A DNA stretch of 45,222 nucleotides, from NCBI GenBank assembly GCA_030576275.1, contig JALIBN010000034.1, positions 50,629 to 95,850 on the forward strand. Reading direction: 5' to 3'. The notes beneath the pieces are model-generated. The model ran no database searches and was not told where the DNA came from. It saw only the letters and a list, made by a program, of their open reading frames with translations. Below, piece by piece: positions 34,593 to 43,424 of the stretch. Numbering within the stretch: position 1 is the first letter of the stretch; each line of letters begins with the position of its first letter. The translations under genes were made by a program, and so were the position numbers. The DNA comes from Pseudomonadota bacterium. Lineage in GTDB: Bacteria > Pseudomonadota > Gammaproteobacteria > Nitrosococcales > Methylophagaceae.

Positions 34593-36678
34593 AGCGGAAG
34601 GCATTTTACGATTGATGTTGGTGGATGATTCACTGACTGATGCTGATAATATAACCAACGTACTTCGAAGTGCAGGCCATACAGTTAGAGGTGCACGTCA
34701 AGAAGTATTGGCAGATTTAGAGCTAGCATTGACAGAAGCATCTTGGGATTTGGTTTTGTGTCGAGATACCTTGGCCGCAGTTTCACCGAGCGATGTGCTT
34801 AATTTAATACACCGTCTGGGAAGAGATATCCCTTGTATTGTACTGGTCACAAACGCTGATAGCATGGCAGATTATTATCATCATGGTGCACAAGATATTA
34901 TTACGTTTAATGACACGGAACGTTTAAAGTTTGCAGTTGCAAGGGAGTTACAAAATTTATTTATACGTCGCTCGAGTAGGCGCAATGAACATGCCTTACG
35001 TGAAAGTGAAAAACGGGCAAAGTTATTATTAGACAGCTCCCGTGATGCGGTTGCTTATATGCATGAAGGCATGCATATTTATGTGAACCAAGCTTATTTA
35101 ACCTTATTTGGATATGAAGAGTCTGAAGATGTCGATGGCTTACCAATGTTAGATATGGTCGCATTAGATGACCATGCTAAATTTAAAGCCTTTTTGAAGC
35201 AGTACTCAGAGCAAGAAAACACTAAATCCCCGCTATTATCGGTGTTGTGCTTGAAAGCTAGTGGCGACAGTTTCCCCGCCAATGTCGAGTTTACTCATGC
35301 TGAAATTGAAGGCGAAGAATGTATTCAAGTGGTTGTCCATGATGAAAATTCACAGGAAGTTTCCGTTTCAGATGAGAAGTTATTATTACTACGCGATTAT
35401 GATGTATTAACGGGCTTATTTAGCCGTATTCGCTTTATGGATGAACTCGGCCTTACCGTTAGTAAAGCCAGTGACGGCAAAGGTATCTCTTCATTATTAT
35501 ATTTGGAGTTTGATAACTTTCAGCTGATTAAAGAAGAGGTAGGATTAACAGCCAGTGAAGAGGTCTTGAAAGAAGCTGCTGGGTTACTGGGTAATATATC
35601 ACAAGATAATGAATTATTAGCGAGATACTCCGATCAAGTCTTTGCTATTATCATTGCTAGTGGCGATAACGATTATGTTGATGAGCGTGCTGAAGCTTAC
35701 CGAGAAATCATTGAAGCTTTCGTTTCTCATGCCAATGGCAAAATGGTTGATTTACGATGCAGTATTGGTATTAGTCGTATTACGGAAAGTTTTTCAATAG
35801 AAGTCATTTTAGAGAATGCCAATAAAGCCTGTATGCAAGTTCAGAAAAAGGGTGGGAATACAGTTGCACGTTATCAAACAGCTAAAGCTGATAAGGGTGA
35901 GGCAAGTAATGATGATGCATTATTTTGGCAGGGAAACATTCGTGATGCGTTAGCAAATAATGGATTTGTACTTAATTATCAGCCCATTGTAAGTTTGCAT
36001 GGTAAAGAGCAAGAGCTTTACGATGTACTGGTTCGGATGAAAGGTGCGGATGGTCAATTGATTGTCGCTGAAAACTTTATTGACTATGTAGCAAATGACA
36101 CCTTGATGTTAGGGATCGATGAGTGGGTTATAGCTCAGGCCCTAGCTAGTTTGGTCGAGCATCGCAAAGATCATCCCAAAACCCGCTTTTTTATTAAGTT
36201 ATCCAAGCCTATGTTAGCGAAAAAGGCATTTGTTGATTGGCTTGTTGCTTTATTACGCCGTCATCAATTAGATGGCTCAGCGTTAGTTTTTGAAATTAGT
36301 GAAACGGCAGCATTAGAAAATTTAGAACAAGCTCAAGCGGTTATTCTCAAGTTAAGAGCAATTGGTTGTGAGTTTGGCTTAGAGCACTTTGGATCGGGCT
36401 TGGATTTTTCATATAGTTTGAGTGTATTAGATGTTGATTATCTGAAGATTAATGGTTCATTTGTAGAGCATATGGCTCAAGATTCAGAGAACCAAGCGGC
36501 GGTGAAAGCCATTATCGAGATGAGTAAACAAGCGGGAAAGCAATGCATTGCTGAGTTTGTATCTGATGCTAATAGTTTAGCTTTGCTATGGCGTTTGGGC
36601 GTTGATTATGCAATGGGTTTTTACATACATAAGCCCTCAAATACGCCCGATTATAATTTTGAAGATGATGATTTATAA
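34585..36678 (+). CDS. fimX: FimX-like c-di-GMP receptor (REC-PAS-degenerate GGDEF-degenerate EAL)
   Basis: About 697 residues, the length and layout of Pseudomonas FimX: receiver-like (about 8-122), PAS (130-250), GGDEF (260-420), EAL (440-685). Key residues are lost. The receiver has Arg where the phosphoacceptor Asp should be (L-V-L-C-R-D), GGDEF is replaced by S-D-Q-V-F, EAL by D-V-L, and the D-D-F-G-T-G loop by E-H-F-G-S-G. It should therefore bind rather than make or cleave c-di-GMP. FimX controls type IV pilus assembly and twitching in Pseudomonas. ATG 34585 is preferred over 34576 because AGAGG (34571-34575) is 9 bases before it but touches the other. It overlaps plsC by 8 bases. Confidence 0.88.
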   Translation: MDRAEGILRLMLVDDSLTDADNITNVLRSAGHTVRGARQEVLADLELALTEASWDLVLCRDTLAAVSPSDVLNLIHRLGRDIPCIVLVTNADSMADYYHHGAQDIITFNDTERLKFAVARELQNLFIRRSSRRNEHALRESEKRAKLLLDSSRDAVAYMHEGMHIYVNQAYLTLFGYEESEDVDGLPMLDMVALDDHAKFKAFLKQYSEQENTKSPLLSVLCLKASGDSFPANVEFTHAEIEGEECIQVVVHDENSQEVSVSDEKLLLLRDYDVLTGLFSRIRFMDELGLTVSKASDGKGISSLLYLEFDNFQLIKEEVGLTASEEVLKEAAGLLGNISQDNELLARYSDQVFAIIIASGDNDYVDERAEAYREIIEAFVSHANGKMVDLRCSIGISRITESFSIEVILENANKACMQVQKKGGNTVARYQTAKADKGEASNDDALFWQGNIRDALANNGFVLNYQPIVSLHGKEQELYDVLVRMKGADGQLIVAENFIDYVANDTLMLGIDEWVIAQALASLVEHRKDHPKTRFFIKLSKPMLAKKAFVDWLVALLRRHQLDGSALVFEISETAALENLEQAQAVILKLRAIGCEFGLEHFGSGLDFSYSLSVLDVDYLKINGSFVEHMAQDSENQAAVKAIIEMSKQAGKQCIAEFVSDANSLALLWRLGVDYAMGFYIHKPSNTPDYNFEDDDL

Positions 36679-36735
36679 AATATTTTTTAGCAGGCCACTT
36701 CAGGACAGGGACACTGTTGGAAGCGGAATTGTTAG

Positions 36736-36900
36736 CTAATATTGCCGTAAGGCATTAATGTGGTCATCAATTCTAGGATGAGGCATAAATAAAGCACTTA
36801 ACCTGCCTCGATCCTTAGTGATTTTCCCAAGGCATTCATCTTGAGAGCAATGGACTAATTCTAGTAATCCTTCGGAGCTAAGCTTGAGCGGAACTATTTT
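36736..36900 (-). pseudogene. C-terminal remnant resembling HtpX (M48 peptidase)
   Basis: After the stop of the ATP-grasp gene the same minus-strand frame stays open for 54 codons to a TAG at 36736-36738. Its last 22 residues read L-S-A-L-F-M-P-H-P-R-I-D-D-H-I-N-A-L-R-Q-Y. This strongly recalls the end of HtpX proteases (L-F-M-x-H-P-P-x-D-x-R-I-x-A-L-R). No start codon with a ribosome site and no zinc-binding H-E-x-x-H part is present, so this looks like the stub of a truncated gene. The frame continuity with the ATP-grasp gene is probably chance. Confidence 0.45.
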
Positions 36901-38022
36901 TCAAGTAGCTGTGATAAGTTGTTTTAGAACTTTTTGTTCAATAAGCTGATGTAATTGAATAGCAGATGCATTTTCATCAGGTTCTACTCGAGATGTACAT
37001 ATTGGCTCACCCTGTTTGATGGTGAGTCCAGCGGCCGGAAGATCATGGCACTCTTCAGGCCATAACATATTGTCAGGAATAATAAGATCTGACATGGCAT
37101 AATGATAAAGCAACGAGGCAACGCTCTGATTTAGGGAACTTTGTGCTCTAGGAAGTCGGCCTAAACACGCATCAAGATGTTCCTTGAACAAAGTATCCGT
37201 GTTGTTAACAAGTTCTGCTGATGCACTTACACGAGGATTAATTTCAAGGATTAATAGTTTATTTAGATCCGAAATAATGAAGTCTAAACTGTTTAAGCCA
37301 ACTAAGGTCAAGGCTATAGTGAGTTGGTTAACTACTTTATCCAAATAGTCATTATGAGAGGCCGAAAGTTGCCATGCTGATTCAATTCTACCCAGACGGA
37401 AAGGGTGTTGATTATTAGGTGCAAGCTGCTGATGATTGATGCTTACCAAGCGTGCTTGATGGCCATCCGCTAAAAATAGGCATGAACCACTATTACCAGA
37501 AACAAAACGTTGATAATAAGTATCAACTTCAATTATATCTGTGGCCAACATCGTATATTGGATGTGTGTACCGCCCATGCCCGTAGCCTGTTTTTTCAGC
37601 CAGGTTAAATCATTGCGAGGCATTTCATCAAATTGAGTATCGGGATAGTTGAAATCGTGTTGATCTAACAAATCGAAAAACAATGCAGGAGTTTTGATCG
37701 TATGTACGGTGTCTGGCGTATTGCCAATAAGCTGAATATTGACGGGTAGTGGAAATAATAAGTGGTAACAGTGTTCAATGCCACTGCCACAAATAAGCAT
37801 GCACTGTTCACCCCCAGTCAGTTCTGACAGGGAGGCAATAATAGTTTCGTGGGTTAATTTGGCAAAAGGTGGGAGAGATTGCCATCGTTCGACAACCGCT
37901 AATAAATCGGTATCACCATAGCAATCAGCCACCCAAACTCTATAACCAGATTGGGTGGCTGATTCTGCTAAGAAGCGCCCACTTTGTGCAAAAATCAGTA
38001 TGGGAATATTCTGAGTTTGCAT
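36901..38022 (-). CDS. ATP-grasp protein of the H4MPT gene cluster
   Basis: A 373-residue ATP-grasp-like protein. Signs are K-K-Q-A-T-G-M-G-G-T-H (glycine-rich nucleotide loop, about 150) and L-L-I-L-E-I-N-P-R-V-S-A-S-A-E-L (metal-binding E-x-N, about 265-280). It starts 13 bases after the mtdB-like gene and is the last of four co-directional genes. ATP-grasp proteins of unproven role (the Orf17 type) occur in H4MPT clusters of methylotrophs; a part in cofactor biosynthesis, such as amino-acid ligation to the pterin side chain, is an inference. The N-terminal Rossmann-like half (P-I-L-I-F-A-Q-S-G-R-F) resembles carbamoyl-phosphate-synthase-like ATP-grasp proteins. Confidence 0.8.
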   Translation of the reverse strand: MQTQNIPILIFAQSGRFLAESATQSGYRVWVADCYGDTDLLAVVERWQSLPPFAKLTHETIIASLSELTGGEQCMLICGSGIEHCYHLLFPLPVNIQLIGNTPDTVHTIKTPALFFDLLDQHDFNYPDTQFDEMPRNDLTWLKKQATGMGGTHIQYTMLATDIIEVDTYYQRFVSGNSGSCLFLADGHQARLVSINHQQLAPNNQHPFRLGRIESAWQLSASHNDYLDKVVNQLTIALTLVGLNSLDFIISDLNKLLILEINPRVSASAELVNNTDTLFKEHLDACLGRLPRAQSSLNQSVASLLYHYAMSDLIIPDNMLWPEECHDLPAAGLTIKQGEPICTSRVEPDENASAIQLHQLIEQKVLKQLITAT

Positions 38023-38035
38023 CGTGCAATTTTAA

Positions 38036-38941
38036 TTAAACGAGCTGACGGGCACCATCAAAGGCGTTACGGAAATCAAGATAGACAGGTTTTTCAGCGT
38101 TTAGCGTTTCTTTTAGTAATGCATTTTGTAGTTTGTATTTAACATTACCTACAGCAAGCGCACCAATACCCACTGCACCTTTAGAGTTTACGGCGTGAAC
38201 GAGAGGTTCACCTGAATCCATGATGCCTAGGCCTTCAATACCTAATGGTGAAACAGCATTTACGTCGCCTGCTACTTTGAGCTGTTTAGCATCTTCTAAC
38301 ACGGAAGAATTCAATACTTGAATTCCTGCTTTTGCAGTACAGAAAACCAGATCCGCATTTGATAATAAACGTGCTTTATCGGCATCAGATGCTGCGGCAG
38401 TAGCTCGTAAACTAACGCCGTAACGGGTCTTAGCTTCTTTAGCAAAATCAAGCGCAGTATCAATTGAAAAGTGATCAACAATCGTTGTATCCGCACCTTG
38501 TTGCGCCACGATCACCGCAGTTGCTAAACCAACCGGACCAGTTCCACCAAAGACAACTGCACGCATACCAGATAATGGTAAATCAAAATTTTTCTTCAAG
38601 TCACGTTCGACACAAGCAACTAATGCTGCGGCAGTTGTAAATGCGCCGCTTGGATCGGCAAAGACTGAAACCTCAAAAGGGGGAACCATAGCCTTTTTAG
38701 CCGCATCTAACATGTCCATTGCCAGACCAATATCTCGACCACCAATAAACATGCCCGTTTTTTTGACACCAGAGGGGCCACGAGAAAAAATTGCGTCTTG
38801 CGTTAGACCCGCCACTTCCTCTAATTTAACATTACTATAAGGAATGACTACTTCGTAGCCAGCATCTACAGCCATATTAATATCAAATGGACTGTTATGT
38901 ACCATAGGGTCTAACATATGAACAATCGAACGTTTTGACAT
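38036..38941 (-). CDS. mtdB: NAD(P)-dependent methylene-tetrahydromethanopterin dehydrogenase, MtdB-like
   Basis: A 301-residue protein closely similar by eye to Methylobacterium MtdB along its whole length: start S-I-V-H-M-L-D-P-M-V-H-N-S-P-F-D-I-N-M-A, then T-Q-D-A-I-F-S-R, Rossmann loop F-G-G-T-G-P-V-G, and end G-I-G-A-L-A-V-G-N-V-K-Y. MtdB oxidises methylene-H4MPT to methenyl-H4MPT in formaldehyde oxidation. An AAGGA site precedes the ATG. It lies 55 bases after the beta-RFAP synthase gene and 13 before the ATP-grasp gene. Confidence 0.9.
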   Translation of the reverse strand: MSKRSIVHMLDPMVHNSPFDINMAVDAGYEVVIPYSNVKLEEVAGLTQDAIFSRGPSGVKKTGMFIGGRDIGLAMDMLDAAKKAMVPPFEVSVFADPSGAFTTAAALVACVERDLKKNFDLPLSGMRAVVFGGTGPVGLATAVIVAQQGADTTIVDHFSIDTALDFAKEAKTRYGVSLRATAAASDADKARLLSNADLVFCTAKAGIQVLNSSVLEDAKQLKVAGDVNAVSPLGIEGLGIMDSGEPLVHAVNSKGAVGIGALAVGNVKYKLQNALLKETLNAEKPVYLDFRNAFDGARQLV

Positions 38942-38996
38942 GTTGATTCCTTAATTTGTAGTTTTTATTGATGTTTTACTAACATCATAATCGTTA

Positions 38997-40028
38997 TTAG
39001 CTTGCCGTTTCAATAACTGCACCATGCTTATCGGCCTGAGCAATGCTAAAAGTAAGTTGATTACCATTAGGCAATATTGATTGAGCGAAAGTTTTTAAGT
39101 TATTGATAAGCGATGTAGCAGTAATTTCACTATCAACAAATACAACGCCAGTTGGCCCCCATGAGCTTTGAGCTATGCCGGTATGGCCAAGTTTGAGTGC
39201 ATGTTCAAGTACTTGTGCTACACCATTGCTGGTATAACGACCGCCTTGAGCTGGCGCAAAGTGGTCACCAATTAACCGTTGGATTTTAGTTATAGCATTA
39301 CCAAACTGATCGAGTTCATTTTCCACTATCGCTGGTAATAATTGCATTAGGCATAAGTGACAAATAGCTTGTGAATTTACCAGTGGAAATTTGGAGAGAG
39401 TTGTGAATGCCGTTTTTTCTTGCTGGCCATGTACACCCTTATGTTTTGGATCCATAATCAGCACCATTCGCCATTCATTAGGTAATTGATGGTGAGCTAA
39501 TAGAGGAGGGGGAGTGCCATGGTTAGGCTTATTACCACCATCCATAATAAAACCACCCATGTCAAAAGTCGCAATACCAATACCAGAGCGTTTACCTCGC
39601 CCTAATTGTTGAGCGAGCTCAGCGGTCGTTGCATTGATGTCATAGAGACGACATAGTGCCGTGCCGATAGTCAGTGCTAATTGTGTGCCTGAACCAAATC
39701 CCGCATGATCAGGAATCAATCGTTCTATAGTGAGTGCGACATGCTGATCTGAAGCCGCAATGTTGTTGCCTATGGTCTGATAAAACCTAGTGAGTAATGA
39801 TTCCGCTTTTTGAATGATTTGCGGGCTGGCGCTTTGACCTGTAATGCTGACATGGTCAGCCCTGCGCGCCTTAACAATCGTATAATGACTATTTATGGCA
39901 AGCCCAATACTGCCAAATTTTCTGCCAGAATCACCATTAAGATCAAGAAAACCTAGATGGAGTCGAGCTGGAGCACTCACCCGTACAGCAATGTTCGGAT
40001 GAGTGTTGTTATTTAGCTTTGATGTCAC
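38997..40028 (-). CDS. Beta-ribofuranosylaminobenzene 5'-phosphate (beta-RFAP) synthase
   Basis: A 343-residue protein with a GHMP-kinase-like ATP motif P-D-H-A-G-F-G-S-G-T-Q-L-A (about 110-122) and the family start V-S-A-P-A-R-L-H-L-G-F-L-D-L-N-G. Beta-RFAP synthase joins 4-hydroxybenzoate or p-aminobenzoate to phosphoribosyl pyrophosphate, the first committed step of methanopterin synthesis. The start is GTG at 40028, overlapping the TAG of the mtdA-like gene (TAGTG), so translation is likely coupled. Its presence is the clearest marker that the organism makes H4MPT. Confidence 0.9.
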   Translation of the reverse strand: MTSKLNNNTHPNIAVRVSAPARLHLGFLDLNGDSGRKFGSIGLAINSHYTIVKARRADHVSITGQSASPQIIQKAESLLTRFYQTIGNNIAASDQHVALTIERLIPDHAGFGSGTQLALTIGTALCRLYDINATTAELAQQLGRGKRSGIGIATFDMGGFIMDGGNKPNHGTPPPLLAHHQLPNEWRMVLIMDPKHKGVHGQQEKTAFTTLSKFPLVNSQAICHLCLMQLLPAIVENELDQFGNAITKIQRLIGDHFAPAQGGRYTSNGVAQVLEHALKLGHTGIAQSSWGPTGVVFVDSEITATSLINNLKTFAQSILPNGNQLTFSIAQADKHGAVIETAS

Positions 40029-40891
40029 TATTCGCTATCGATCTTACAAGCAATATCGTAGATAGTTGTTTCATCGAGGAATTGATCATTGGATTCAAAT
40101 AAAGATGATACTGAGCCACGATGCACTTTCATTTTAAAGTTACCAATAGCAATGGCACCATATAATTTAATACCTTCTTTTTCTGTACCATTGTCCATAA
40201 CTTCAATGCCCTCAACACCAAGTGGCGGCACCGCGTTGACATCGGCAATAACTTCTAATGTATCACTTGCAGACCATGCAGATTTTTGTAATACACAGAC
40301 ACCTGCAGGGCCGCTAGCAATAGCAACATGAGCATCTTTTAATAATCCTTTCACCGCTTCATCACTACGACTTTCACCAGGCGTAACGTCCACGCCATAA
40401 GCCGCTTTCATTTGATCTGTAATGACCTTCGCTCGCGCTAAACTACGGGAAGTAATAACGACTTCGCTAGCACCTTCTTTTAAGAAATAAAGTGCAGAAC
40501 GTTGGCCTACAGGGCCAGATCCTAAGATAACAACTTTTTTACCTGTAATGTCATAGTTTGTCATTACTTTGCGGGCGATAGCTGCAGCTGTTGTATTGGA
40601 GCCATTTGGGTCAAGCATTACTGAGACACGAACAGGGCCAAAGAAGGCCTTCTTAACTGCCTTACCAACGAGTTCGCTGGCTGCAACGTTAGAGCCTCCG
40701 ATAAAAATCGCACTATTTTTTAAGTTTTTTCCACCGCGTGTAAAGATCATGCCATGGACATGAGGCGTTACATTGTCACGAGTTACACCGCCATATGCCA
40801 TGATATTGTCTACTCCCGCATCATATGCAACTGCTTGGTCAAATGCACTAACAACAGAGTCAGTATCAAGATGAAGTAACAATTTTTTCAT
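40028..40891 (-). CDS. mtdA: NADP-dependent methylene-H4F/H4MPT dehydrogenase, MtdA-like
   Basis: A 287-residue paralogue of the MtdB-like protein that matches Methylobacterium MtdA (288 residues) better: K-K-L-L-L-H-L-D-T-D, I-F-T-R-G-G-K, M-L-D-P-N-G-S-N-T-T-A-A-A and the end L-F-E-S-N-D-Q-F. Rossmann loop L-G-S-G-P-V-G. MtdA reduces NADP with methylene-H4F or methylene-H4MPT. No methenyl-H4F cyclohydrolase (fch), its frequent partner, is in the window. It heads the operon, with a GGAGAG site before the ATG. Promoter-like AT-rich sequence lies in the 262 bases upstream. The exact cofactor choice (MtdA versus an MtdC-like variant) is not certain. Confidence 0.82.
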   Translation of the reverse strand: MKKLLLHLDTDSVVSAFDQAVAYDAGVDNIMAYGGVTRDNVTPHVHGMIFTRGGKNLKNSAIFIGGSNVAASELVGKAVKKAFFGPVRVSVMLDPNGSNTTAAAIARKVMTNYDITGKKVVILGSGPVGQRSALYFLKEGASEVVITSRSLARAKVITDQMKAAYGVDVTPGESRSDEAVKGLLKDAHVAIASGPAGVCVLQKSAWSASDTLEVIADVNAVPPLGVEGIEVMDNGTEKEGIKLYGAIAIGNFKMKVHRGSVSSLFESNDQFLDETTIYDIACKIDSE

Positions 40892-41153
40892 AGGTCTCTC
40901 CTGCCCAGTGGTATGGGTCTATATATAATTATGTAAAGATGTAAAACTACAAAGTTTACCTTAATTACTTTAACTTATCATGCCGTTGAGAATAAAATTC
41001 TTGATGTCGTTATCTGCCTATGATGAATACGAATAGCTAAAGTTAGGGTATGATGCAAAATTATGTATCAACGTGTTTAAGGAACTATAAGGTTGACGCA
41101 TGAGTCAGATGAAATCCCACGAGGAATAATTAGCATAATTTAGGAGTTACTTG
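40892..41153. other. 262-base divergent region between the H4MPT operon and a small secreted protein gene
   Basis: It should hold promoters for both directions. Next to mtdA it contains TATATATAATTAT (40920-40932) and a tandem ATGTAAA (40931-40945), read as TTTACAT on the minus strand. A TATGAT at 41049-41054 is a possible plus-strand -10 box. No coding frame of note. Confidence 0.4.
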
Positions 41154-41507
41154 ATGAATAAAGCGGGTTTAACACTATTAATGACTGGATTGCTTGCGCT
41201 TCCAGGGATTAGCTCGGCCAATGACTTTTCAACTGTCACACGTGTTCAATATGTTCAGGATTGCATTGCATCAAATCAGGGCAAAATGAATATTTATGAA
41301 GCAACAAATAAATGTTCATGTGTTATTGATAAGTTATCAGAATCGTTTACACAAACTGAACTTGAAGATGCTGATACGGGATTTCAATACCGAAACTTGC
41401 CGGGTGACCGAGGTGCCATGTTCAGAGACGATGCCGATGTAGTTGATGGCATCAGTGAATTTAAAAAAGCGCATATAGAAGCCTATAAAAGCTGTCGGAT
41501 GCGTTGA
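41154..41507 (+). CDS. Small secreted cysteine-containing protein, unknown function
   Basis: A 117-residue protein with a signal peptide (hydrophobic 5-15, cleavage likely after S-S-A at about 23). The mature part has four cysteines: one in D-C-I-A-S-N, two in N-K-C-S-C-V-I-D and one near the end in K-S-C-R-M-R, so two disulfides are possible. The C-S-C-V-I-D core recurs in small exported proteins of gammaproteobacteria that have no assigned role. ATG 41154 is chosen over TTG 41151, with TAGGAG 9-14 bases before it. It converges on the SoxYZ-like gene across a strong terminator and diverges from the H4MPT operon. A periplasmic redox or carrier role is only a guess. Confidence 0.75.
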   Translation: MNKAGLTLLMTGLLALPGISSANDFSTVTRVQYVQDCIASNQGKMNIYEATNKCSCVIDKLSESFTQTELEDADTGFQYRNLPGDRGAMFRDDADVVDGISEFKKAHIEAYKSCRMR

Positions 41508-41532
41508 TCATAAAAAAGCGTTTCACATAAAA

Positions 41533-41567
41533 ACAAAAAGGCCGTATTAGAATACGGCCTTTTTTTT
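41533..41567. terminator. Strong bidirectional intrinsic terminator
   Basis: Arms AAGGCCGTATT (41538-41548) and 41551-41561 pair perfectly around AG and are followed by T7. On the left AAACAAAAA gives a U-rich tail for the minus strand. It separates the small secreted protein gene from the convergent SoxYZ-like gene. Confidence 0.92.
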
Positions 41568-41592
41568 GGGTAATTTTAGTGCTGATTCTTAA

Positions 41593-42390
41593 CTAGATGT
41601 CTTTATGTTCACTAAAAGCCTGATTTTCACTGTCAGTTGCCTCAGCTTTTAATGTCCCTTTTTCTGTTGGCGTAAAGGTAAATCGAATGCTTGGATCTTC
41701 ACTAACAGAAATGCCCGTATCAACTGACATTAATGGTTTATCGTTGTAAGAGATATTAATATTTTTCACATAATGTGCTGTAATATATCTGCGTGAAGCC
41801 TGATCAAATTGTAAACCATTGTAGTTAGGATGGCTGATAATCACTTGGGCTTGCACTGGCTCGCCAACGGTTGGTGTACGCATGCGAATTTGCATCTTAC
41901 CTAAGCGGGCTAGGGCTGCGGCCGCATCTTTACCTGCAGGCGCACTACAACCACCAGATGCTTTAACAAAGCGGGATACCATATGTAATGAGCCATCGTT
42001 CATTTCAGCGATAGCGCGTACAAAAGTGTATTGATCCACCCGCATTCGGGTAGAAATATCGATTAAACCTAATTCTGGCGATAAGTGAAAGTTAGCTGAA
42101 TAAGGTTCCGGATTATTATCAACTACAATATGAATGTTTTTGATGTATTTTTCGGCTGACTGAGGTACGAGTGATTTTACTGTAATAGGTACTATTGCTG
42201 CATCCTCGGCTCGTTTAGGTGCTTCAATAACTAATAGATCACTTGCATCTTCTCGAATCACTTTATCACCAAAGTAAGCTACTTTAAGTGTTGGCCATAA
42301 AGGTTCTTTTGGCGTCGCGGCATAGGTCGTTAGCCCAAATGACATGAGGGCTAGACTGATGATAAAAAGATTAAATATACGACTAGACAT
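41593..42390 (-). CDS. Quinoprotein dehydrogenase-associated SoxYZ-like carrier protein
   Basis: A 265-residue exported protein: signal peptide (residues 1-24, T-T-Y-A-A), a SoxY-like domain (about 30-155), and a SoxZ-like domain (about 165-260, with I-R-M-R-T-P-T-V-G-E-P-V and A-T-D-S-E). The joint between them contains G-G-C-S-A-P, where SoxY proteins carry the swinging Cys at their C-terminal G-G-C-G. It is thus a natural SoxY-SoxZ fusion with the carrier Cys internal. Such fusions are known beside PQQ-dependent dehydrogenase genes; what they carry is unknown. It follows the metallohydrolase gene by 20 bases, with a GGAGAGAA site before the ATG. Confidence 0.85.
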   Translation of the reverse strand: MSSRIFNLFIISLALMSFGLTTYAATPKEPLWPTLKVAYFGDKVIREDASDLLVIEAPKRAEDAAIVPITVKSLVPQSAEKYIKNIHIVVDNNPEPYSANFHLSPELGLIDISTRMRVDQYTFVRAIAEMNDGSLHMVSRFVKASGGCSAPAGKDAAAALARLGKMQIRMRTPTVGEPVQAQVIISHPNYNGLQFDQASRRYITAHYVKNINISYNDKPLMSVDTGISVSEDPSIRFTFTPTEKGTLKAEATDSENQAFSEHKDI

Positions 42391-42410
42391 AGTTTCTCTC
42401 CACTATTTTA

Positions 42411-43340
42411 TTATTCCCATTCGAGTTCGACGAATGATGCTGTGATGTTACGACGATGATATTGTTCAAAAAGTTCCCATTTACTGGATTCTTGAAGTCC
42501 TACCGTTTGGGTGGCTTCCTCAATGGTGCCCATATTATTAATAATTTCGCGAACTTCATTTCGCAATACCGTAAAGTATTTTATTTGTGCTAATAAGCCT
42601 TGTTGCCATTCTTTACTCCCAGCTTTGCCATGACCTGGGATGACAAAATTAAGATCCATAGACTGAAGTTTTTGCATTGTTATAAGCCAACCATTAATAC
42701 TACCATCGAGTGCTGGAATACGACTCATAAACAACAAATCACCTGTCCACAGCGTTTTAGTTGTGTTATCTAATACTGTCAAATCATTGTCGGTATGAGA
42801 TGTTGAATAGGCAGTAAGAGTTAATAAGCGGTTTCCTAGATCAATAGTAATAGGCTTATCTATTGAAACTGTAAGTGTGGGACTAATAAATTCAGTTCCG
42901 GTGTACGCTTGTCCTAATAACACTTTGAAAGTCTTGGCAAAATAATCTTGTCGAGCGGCAATGGCTGCAGGCAACTTTTCATGGCCGATGAATTGCGGGG
43001 AATCCACTTTAAAAGCCGCATTGCCGAATAGGTGATCAGGATGAACGTGACTATTGATGACATAACAGATAGGCAAGTCAGTTTGTTTCTTGATTGCACG
43101 TCGTAAATATGTACCTTCAAGATAACTACCTCCACTATCAATTACAGCGACACATCGCTCGCCGATGATAAAGCCAACATTGGCAATCGCACCAATATTA
43201 GCTTCTGTAGGGTCTTCATGAATGCCTTGATGATAGAAAATGCCTGGGCTGACTTCTGATAATGAATAATTTTCGTCAGCATAACAGGAGGTTAAAAAGA
43301 TAGAGACAAATAAACCTGCGAACTTTGAAAGTGTTTTCAT
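42411..43340 (-). CDS. Quinoprotein relay system zinc metallohydrolase (SoxH-like MBL fold), lipoprotein
   Basis: A metallo-beta-lactamase-fold protein of about 309 residues. The metal motif is N-S-H-V-H-P-D-H-L-F-G (H-x-H-x-D-H), with further ligands likely in S-T-S-H-T-D-N-D, W-T-G-D-L-L-F and V-I-P-G-H-G. The N-terminal signal has a lipobox L-T-S-C, so it is probably a periplasm-facing lipoprotein. The start is set at ATG 43340; a TTG at 43352 would add four residues. It resembles SoxH and the PQQ-associated 'relay' hydrolases found with SoxYZ-like fusions. First gene of a two-gene operon, divergent from gltX. Substrate unknown. Confidence 0.85.
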   Translation of the reverse strand: MKTLSKFAGLFVSIFLTSCYADENYSLSEVSPGIFYHQGIHEDPTEANIGAIANVGFIIGERCVAVIDSGGSYLEGTYLRRAIKKQTDLPICYVINSHVHPDHLFGNAAFKVDSPQFIGHEKLPAAIAARQDYFAKTFKVLLGQAYTGTEFISPTLTVSIDKPITIDLGNRLLTLTAYSTSHTDNDLTVLDNTTKTLWTGDLLFMSRIPALDGSINGWLITMQKLQSMDLNFVIPGHGKAGSKEWQQGLLAQIKYFTVLRNEVREIINNMGTIEEATQTVGLQESSKWELFEQYHRRNITASFVELEWE

Positions 43341-43424
43341 AGAAATCAACAACCATATATATAGAGTACATACTGGTACAATAACTGATATTTGAAATAA
43401 TATTCCAGTTTAAGAGATTAATAC

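Follow-up and report, generated by a model that had tools for sequence, protein, structure and literature searches.

An H4MPT operon of Methylophagaceae combines mtdB with an MtdA-like gene from a separate Mtd group

Organization of the operon and of its genes

The window (the whole stretch of 45,222 nucleotides analyzed here) carries four consecutive ORFs on the minus strand, which constitute one operon (40891-36901; Table 1). The gene of beta-RFAP synthase, the enzyme of the first committed step of methanopterin synthesis, lies between the genes of two methylene-pterin dehydrogenases, and the last gene encodes an ATP-grasp protein that we take to be orf17-like, after the H4MPT cluster of M. 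extorquens. The original prediction of one operon with MtdA-like and MtdB-like dehydrogenases around beta-RFAP synthase was borne out by the four ORFs, by the domains of their products and by the 46 named loci described below, and the junctions that it gave are those observed: TAGTG (a 1-base overlap) between the mtdA-like and RFAP synthase genes, then 55 and 13 bases.

Table 1. Genes of the operon, in order of their reading
Gene	Positions	Strand	Length (aa)	Remarks
mtdA-like gene	40028-40891	minus	287	member of the fourth Mtd group; putative methylene-H4MPT dehydrogenase, NADP-linked
beta-RFAP synthase	38997-40028	minus	343	GTG start
mtdB	38036-38941	minus	301	MtdB clade
ATP-grasp protein	36901-38022	minus	373	adjoins mtdB in nearly all loci

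Both dehydrogenases pass the Pfam Mpt_N cut-off of 27 bits (106.8 bits for the MtdA-like protein and 132.5 bits for MtdB) and are homologous to the solved MtdA of M. extorquens, the former by a near full-length match (E = 1e-72) and the latter by a weaker match to the same structures (E = 1e-34); both therefore belong to the Mtd superfamily. The third gene is identified as mtdB by the clade of its product and by its position between the RFAP synthase and ATP-grasp genes. As predicted, the two paralogs are clearly different, sharing 32% identity and falling in different clades. With 189.1 bits, the RFAP synthase exceeds the cut-off of TIGR00144 beta_RFAP_syn (113.5 bits), and its 210.6 bits for NF040726, a stricter equivalog, fall short of the required 328. 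No Rfam match was found at gathering cut-offs in positions 36000-42500, and a scan for promoter-like (13 vs 12.4 in shuffles) and terminator-like sites (5 vs 3.4) was given no weight. An AlphaFold2 model built from a 10-sequence alignment was discarded (mean pLDDT of 46.6).

Conservation of the locus

The genome containing the window (2.37 Mb, 99.98% complete) encodes an MtdA-like protein whose best named match, from 'Methylophaga sp. isolate LH_M6', is 98% identical. This genome carries two hexulose-phosphate synthase genes above the curated cut-off, and the organism was therefore taken as a RuMP methylotroph. The search for fch, folD and mch that had been proposed as a check found Mch and FolD, the former on the contig of the operon about 46 kb away and outside the window, and did not find Fch.

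The order mtdA-RFAP-mtdB on one strand is present in all 46 named Methylophaga-type loci, in 30/30 further loci of the family (which overlap the named ones in species) and in the two loci of Nitrosococcus-like genomes from the same order. The ATP-grasp gene comes next after mtdB in 44 of the 46 named loci, the remaining two being short contigs. Since this order is kept across loci, the arrangement is not due to chance; it is real and old. Among the 36 genomes of the family, 31 have two Mpt_N genes, two have one and three have none, and in all 31 two-gene genomes both genes share one contig, 1.9-2.1 kb apart. The contig scan for loci was not exhaustive, as it missed the two Nitrosococcus-like loci that a genome-level Mpt_N search retrieved. 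Both of these genomes (G039 and G040) have the order mtdA-RFAP-mtdB-orf17-mch, with pntA-pntB 99 bases upstream of mtdA in G039 (locus L096, checked with Pfam) and pntB 87 bases upstream in G040 (L097). According to PMC5020050, the H4MPT set is encoded by N. halophilus and N. wardiae, while key genes are missing from N. oceani and N. watsonii.

On two counts, the surroundings agree with vertical inheritance of the locus in this bacterial order: the window and G039 each have a small gene upstream of the operon, the two being 35% identical, and gltX (named from reading of the sequence) is a neighbor of the operon both in the window and in G040. One genome of 1.2 Mb (G022, 84% complete) still has RFAP-mtdB-orf17, on a single contig and amid similar neighbors; no mtdA was found in this genome, and all that is left before the RFAP gene is a short start with ATG and an end resembling TAGTG. 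Loss of mtdA is therefore possible with mtdB retained.

Phylogeny of the Mtd proteins

A tree of 135 sequences (at least 200 aa, identical ones dropped from 205) placed the 33 MtdA-like rows of the family and of the same order apart from the MtdA proteins found across the class (SH-aLRT of 98). A second tree of 73 proteins, which includes the window, 10 loci chosen from the 46 named Methylophaga ones and 16 of the MtdB rows, revealed four groups, each forming one side of a branch: (i) MtdB (16 rows, support 100/100), (ii) planctomycete MtdC (14 rows, 100/100), (iii) MtdA, including that of M. extorquens AM1 (28 rows, 99/100), and (iv) a new group gathering the proteins of Methylophaga, of the Nitrosococcus-like genomes and of two Bacillota (15 rows, 99/95). 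This tree leaves out L208 (short) and rows with at least five X, L082 was taken out of the search alignment because of its X residues, and no tree includes G048, a genome of the class that has Fch and a partial Mpt_N gene. The MtdA-like protein of the window lies outside the clade that holds AM1 MtdA; it belongs to a separate Mtd group and is not an ordinary serine-cycle MtdA. Of the identities considered in the original prediction, the MtdA type was not retained and the unassigned subgroup proved right, the new group forming a well-supported branch of its own (99/95). The proposed phylogeny also put the two paralogs in different clades and not both in the MtdB clade.

The relationships between the groups are less sharply drawn. 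In the best tree, MtdC pairs weakly with MtdA (67/56), and AU tests rejected neither a clade uniting the new group and MtdC (p-AU 0.276) nor one uniting the new group and MtdA (p-AU 0.534). A clade of MtdA plus the proteobacterial members of the new group, with the Bacillota outside, was rejected (p = 0.0197), this clade having been named after the tree was seen. Median identities of the new group are 42% to MtdC and 45% to MtdA.

Residue patterns were compared in 50 sequences of the new group, 13 of MtdC, 28 of MtdA and 90 of MtdB, the latter set holding near-copies (window numbering). All 50 proteins of the new group have R131, R149 and R153, as do nearly all MtdA and MtdC but few MtdB; these residues follow the glycine motif and the second Rossmann strand, a location that suggests NADP binding. 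At position 57, all proteins of the new group and 13/13 MtdC have L, and 28/28 MtdA have K. At position 95, P is found in 48/50 members of the new group, 13/13 MtdC and 90/90 MtdB, and S in 26/28 MtdA. Position 254, adjacent to the invariant K253 (presumably Lys256 of AM1 MtdA, an active-site residue), is M in the new group and MtdC, L or I in MtdA and Y in 88/90 MtdB. Positions 57, 95 or 254 might set the choice of the pterin, a hypothesis to be read with the fact that the four positions stressed here were chosen from 17 at which the new group and MtdA differ. Across these 17, MtdC has the MtdA residue at eight and the residue of the new group at four, so the pattern is mixed.

Members of the new group in Bacillota

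The two Bacillota carrying a gene of the new group, Ca. Formimonas warabiya and Gracilibacter BRH_c7a, are anaerobes. In both, this gene directly precedes the ATP-grasp gene, i.e., it occupies the slot held elsewhere by mtdB, in a cluster that also holds Ftr and Mch. The Gracilibacter cluster comprises genes for a GHMP-kinase (the RFAP synthase), a flavoprotein, a pterin-binding protein, a DUF447 protein, an ATP-grasp protein, an amidohydrolase, a GXGXG protein, Ftr and Mch; in our reading, the amidohydrolase and GXGXG proteins are probably FhcA and FhcC. The gene of the new group is the sole Mpt_N gene of Ca. Formimonas, and Gracilibacter has in addition an interrupted Mpt_N remnant of 41 positions with stops. 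Both genomes have Fch, located away from the H4MPT cluster. A survey of 43 genomes from the class of Ca. Formimonas found Mpt_N in the genome of Ca. Formimonas only, and a term search of the main text of PMC9768040, on Formimonas, found no mention of methanopterin.

Genomic context: Fch, Mch, FolD and transhydrogenase

Serine-cycle MtdA is active with both methylene-H4F and methylene-H4MPT and is NADP-specific. Among 27 loci of ordinary MtdA (4-18 kb long), 26 have fch or serine-cycle genes nearby: Fch in 19, Ppc in six (four with Hpr) and Hpr-Gck-GlyA-FtfL in one, the names Ppc, Hpr, Gck, GlyA and FtfL having been assigned by reading the sequences; the only locus without such a marker is truncated at the edge of its contig. 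Around the gene of the new group, 50 loci (46 named, two from the same order and two from Bacillota) yielded no such marker. Likewise, Fch was not found in the 36 genomes of the family (that of the window included), in six other genomes of the order or in five named Methylophaga. For the mtdA-like gene, then, no fch was found in the genome and no fch or serine-cycle gene in its vicinity; the idea of an ordinary MtdA whose fch partner lies at another site was discarded, none being found in the family. Overall, Fch is present in 20 of the 26 class genomes with an ordinary MtdA vs none of the 33 genomes of the family and order that carry the new group (Fisher p = 8e-11, kinship ignored). However, since six of these 26 genomes also lack Fch and both Bacillota have it, the absence of Fch alone is a weak argument.

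Of the 29 family and order genomes with a completeness of at least 90%, 24 have two Mpt_N genes along with Mch, and the other five have neither. These five, namely G029 (1.1 Mb, 100% complete, without Mpt_N or Mch) and four genomes of the same order, keep FolD, which was detected in 27 of the 29. PntB matches were obtained in 10 of the 36 family genomes, including that of the window (in G027 as fragments only). An argument based on the lack of transhydrogenase was dropped for this reason, and NADPH need not come from the MtdA-like enzyme.

Previous reports on MtdA in Methylophaga

A 2019 study of M. thiooxydans (PMC6548844) lists the H4MPT route with mtdB alone and reports on DMS a 5.30-fold increase of a 'methylenetetrahydrofolate dehydrogenase (MtdA)', read as H4F-linked, and a 2.20-fold increase of formate-H4F ligase. 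Since the genome of M. thiooxydans has exactly two Mpt_N genes, both in the mtdA-RFAP-mtdB operon, and no Fch was found in it, this MtdA is most likely the protein of the new group. The present evidence favors a new interpretation of its rise, although the folate ligase rose too. Work on marine DMS and methanol degraders counts mtdA as a marker of the folate pathway: the same report suggests, from the rise of MtdA, that a DMS methyl group may pass via H4F, and PMC9563715 places mtdA among the H4F genes, with Methylophaga as a close match. A naming after H4MPT is already in print, since PMC10199937, on mussel symbionts, gives mtdA as 'NAD(P)-dependent methylenetetrahydromethanopterin dehydrogenase', together with mtdB and folD. 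PMC3505017 describes three classes, with MtdA found so far only in serine-cycle methylotrophs. A search that covered the open-licence literature found no account of a fourth Mtd group.

Proposed role and alternative explanations

The operon probably encodes, beside MtdB, a second and NADP-linked methylene-H4MPT dehydrogenase (a probability of about two thirds). Formaldehyde from methanol or methylated compounds would bind (dephospho-)H4MPT to give methylene-H4MPT, of which one part would be oxidized by MtdB, probably with NAD+, and another part by the MtdA-like enzyme with NADP+. The methenyl-H4MPT made by both enzymes would proceed to Mch and then to the Fhc complex. A single C1 flow could in this way yield NADH for respiration and NADPH for synthesis, FolD serving folate. 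We infer H4MPT as the substrate in the cell, the preference for NADP, the direction of flow and the balancing role. The action on H4MPT foreseen in the original prediction appears to be the best reading because of the gene context, the lack of detectable Fch, the co-occurrence with mch and the Bacillota relatives. The balance of NADPH and NADH also proposed there gains from the position of pntAB, immediately ahead of mtdA in both Nitrosococcus-like genomes, but is still a hypothesis. In a wider and tentative form, put at close to even odds, this would define a fourth class of bacterial methylene-pterin dehydrogenase, NADP-linked and dedicated to H4MPT, which would occur in Methylophaga, in part of Nitrosococcus and in those anaerobic Bacillota that carry H4MPT. 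Within the order to which the window belongs, the enzyme would have been joined to mtdB, and in Nitrosococcus-like genomes also to pntAB, so that one operon would set the yield of NADPH vs NADH from formaldehyde oxidation.

Several observations were counted against the H4MPT role: FolD could hydrolyze methenyl-H4F made by MtdA; the folate-linked ligase rises with MtdA on DMS in M. thiooxydans (PMC6548844); FolD was not detected in G014 and G023 (two of the 24 near-complete genomes carrying the mtdA-like gene); PntB is present in the genome of the window; G022 lost mtdA; and the residue pattern is mixed. Furthermore, M. extorquens MtdA acts on both pterins, according to PMC9012536, so the genomic context does not fix the substrate. 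The protein could accordingly be a methylene-H4F or dual-use dehydrogenase lying by chance in an H4MPT operon, with FolD for the cyclohydrolase step, which is the interpretation given in PMC6548844; its identity of about 47% to AM1 MtdA, the joint rise on DMS and the six class genomes keeping an ordinary MtdA without Fch would allow this. We regard this as distinctly unlikely in view of the placement in the operon, the separate clade, the Bacillota relatives in fhc-mch clusters and the distribution of the gene, which tracks Mch and not FolD in G029 and the four same-order genomes.

It is unlikely, though a serious alternative, that the protein is an MtdC in all but name, which would group with planctomycete MtdC and be unusual only in its pairing with MtdB. 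The clade with MtdC that the AU test did not reject and the common L57, M254 and nearly constant P95 would agree with this, as would the properties of MtdC, which reportedly (Vorholt 2005) prefers H4MPT and NADP, with high affinity for methylene-H4MPT and NADP and low affinity for H4F. However, the two groups are distinct (99/95 and 100/100), the best tree puts MtdC with MtdA, albeit weakly, the median identity is lower to MtdC than to MtdA, and MtdC sides more often with MtdA at the 17 positions. A flow in the reverse direction, in which NADPH would reduce methenyl-H4MPT and feed methylene-H4MPT or formaldehyde to assimilation, could be argued from the reversibility of the methylene-pterin dehydrogenase reaction and from the anaerobic nature of the Bacillota carriers; it is quite improbable, since in Methylophaga the RuMP cycle (two hexulose-phosphate synthases) takes formaldehyde itself and leaves reductive flow without evident use. 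A recent duplication of mtdB, suggested by the presence of both paralogs in one operon, is practically negligible and was rejected on the trees (MtdB stands behind a 100/100 branch) and on the 32% identity.

If the protein is a true H4MPT enzyme, (i) the folate readings of PMC6548844 and PMC9563715 would change, (ii) a RuMP methylotroph would have a simple split of C1 electrons between NADPH and NADH, and (iii) the methylene-H4MPT dehydrogenase of two anaerobic Bacillota would be named.

Comparison with known systems

The MtdA of M. extorquens AM1 (PDB 1lu9, 6tge and 6tlk) resembles the MtdA-like protein over nearly its full length and shares R131, R149, R153 and K253, but belongs to another clade and has K57, S95 and L254 instead of L, P and M. 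Whereas loci of serine-cycle MtdA carry fch or serine-cycle genes, the mtdA-like gene lies in an H4MPT operon. Planctomycete MtdC is also MtdA-like overall and has the same states at positions 57 and 254 and mostly at 95, but it forms a separate clade, and the MtdC genomes G415-G417, with one Mpt_N gene each, have no MtdB partner. The MtdB of the same operon belongs to the same family and likely uses the same C1 substrate, and the Bacillota members occupy the mtdB slot; it differs by its low identity, its clade and its coenzyme-site residues. Finally, Ca. Formimonas and Gracilibacter BRH_c7a have an enzyme of the same Mtd group, with RFAP synthase, ATP-grasp and Mch genes nearby, but without the MtdB that accompanies it in the window.

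Variation in and around the operon

Upstream of the window operon lie sulfur oxidation genes, observed here in a methylotroph and represented by a SoxY-SoxZ fusion. A small protein gene divergent from the operon retains its position across Methylophaga-type and Nitrosococcus-like genomes, with 35% identity between the products of the window and of L096 (a Nitrosococcus-like locus), and a Pfam search with these two proteins gave no match. Matches to the transhydrogenase subunit PntB are patchily distributed in the family of the window (10 of the 36 genomes, including G027, in which the protein is broken).

Coordinates of the features at the compared loci
Locus	Position	Feature	Genome
Window	41593-43352	Fused SoxY-SoxZ protein and metallo-beta-lactamase-fold protein, upstream of operon	
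Window	41151-41507	Small protein gene, divergent from operon	
L096	1367-1717	Counterpart of the small protein gene	
L214	5424-6771	Operon remnant without mtdA	G022 (small, Methylophaga-type)
L140	6653-8482	Tandem mtdB pair	G288
L141	4561-8210	Tandem mtdB pair	G176
L101-L111		Ordinary MtdA beside ppc-like gene	G084, G224, G125, G248, G351, G219
L103	3963-7061	1032-aa ORF adjoining mtdA	G224
L191, L192	6409-18116, 6465-18121	RFAP synthase-MtdA-ATP-grasp-Fhc-Mch cluster	Ca. Formimonas warabiya, Gracilibacter BRH_c7a

The six genomes in which an ordinary (serine-cycle type) MtdA adjoins a ppc-like gene gave no match to Fch. In one of them, the start of the long ORF beside mtdA resembles a Cas9 RuvC motif, a putative assignment.

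Clusters for the H4MPT route are also found in Ca. Formimonas warabiya and Gracilibacter BRH_c7a, which are anaerobic Bacillota. In a published proteome study of Formimonas (PMC9768040), a term search of the main text found no mention of methanopterin.

The operon of G022 has lost mtdA, of which a short start and end are left, and retains RFAP-mtdB-orf17. Two genomes from other families (G288 and G176) carry mtdB twice, in tandem. Since their second copy clusters in the tree with the MtdB of Methylophaga and Nitrosococcus-like genomes, its position suggests acquisition by gene transfer.
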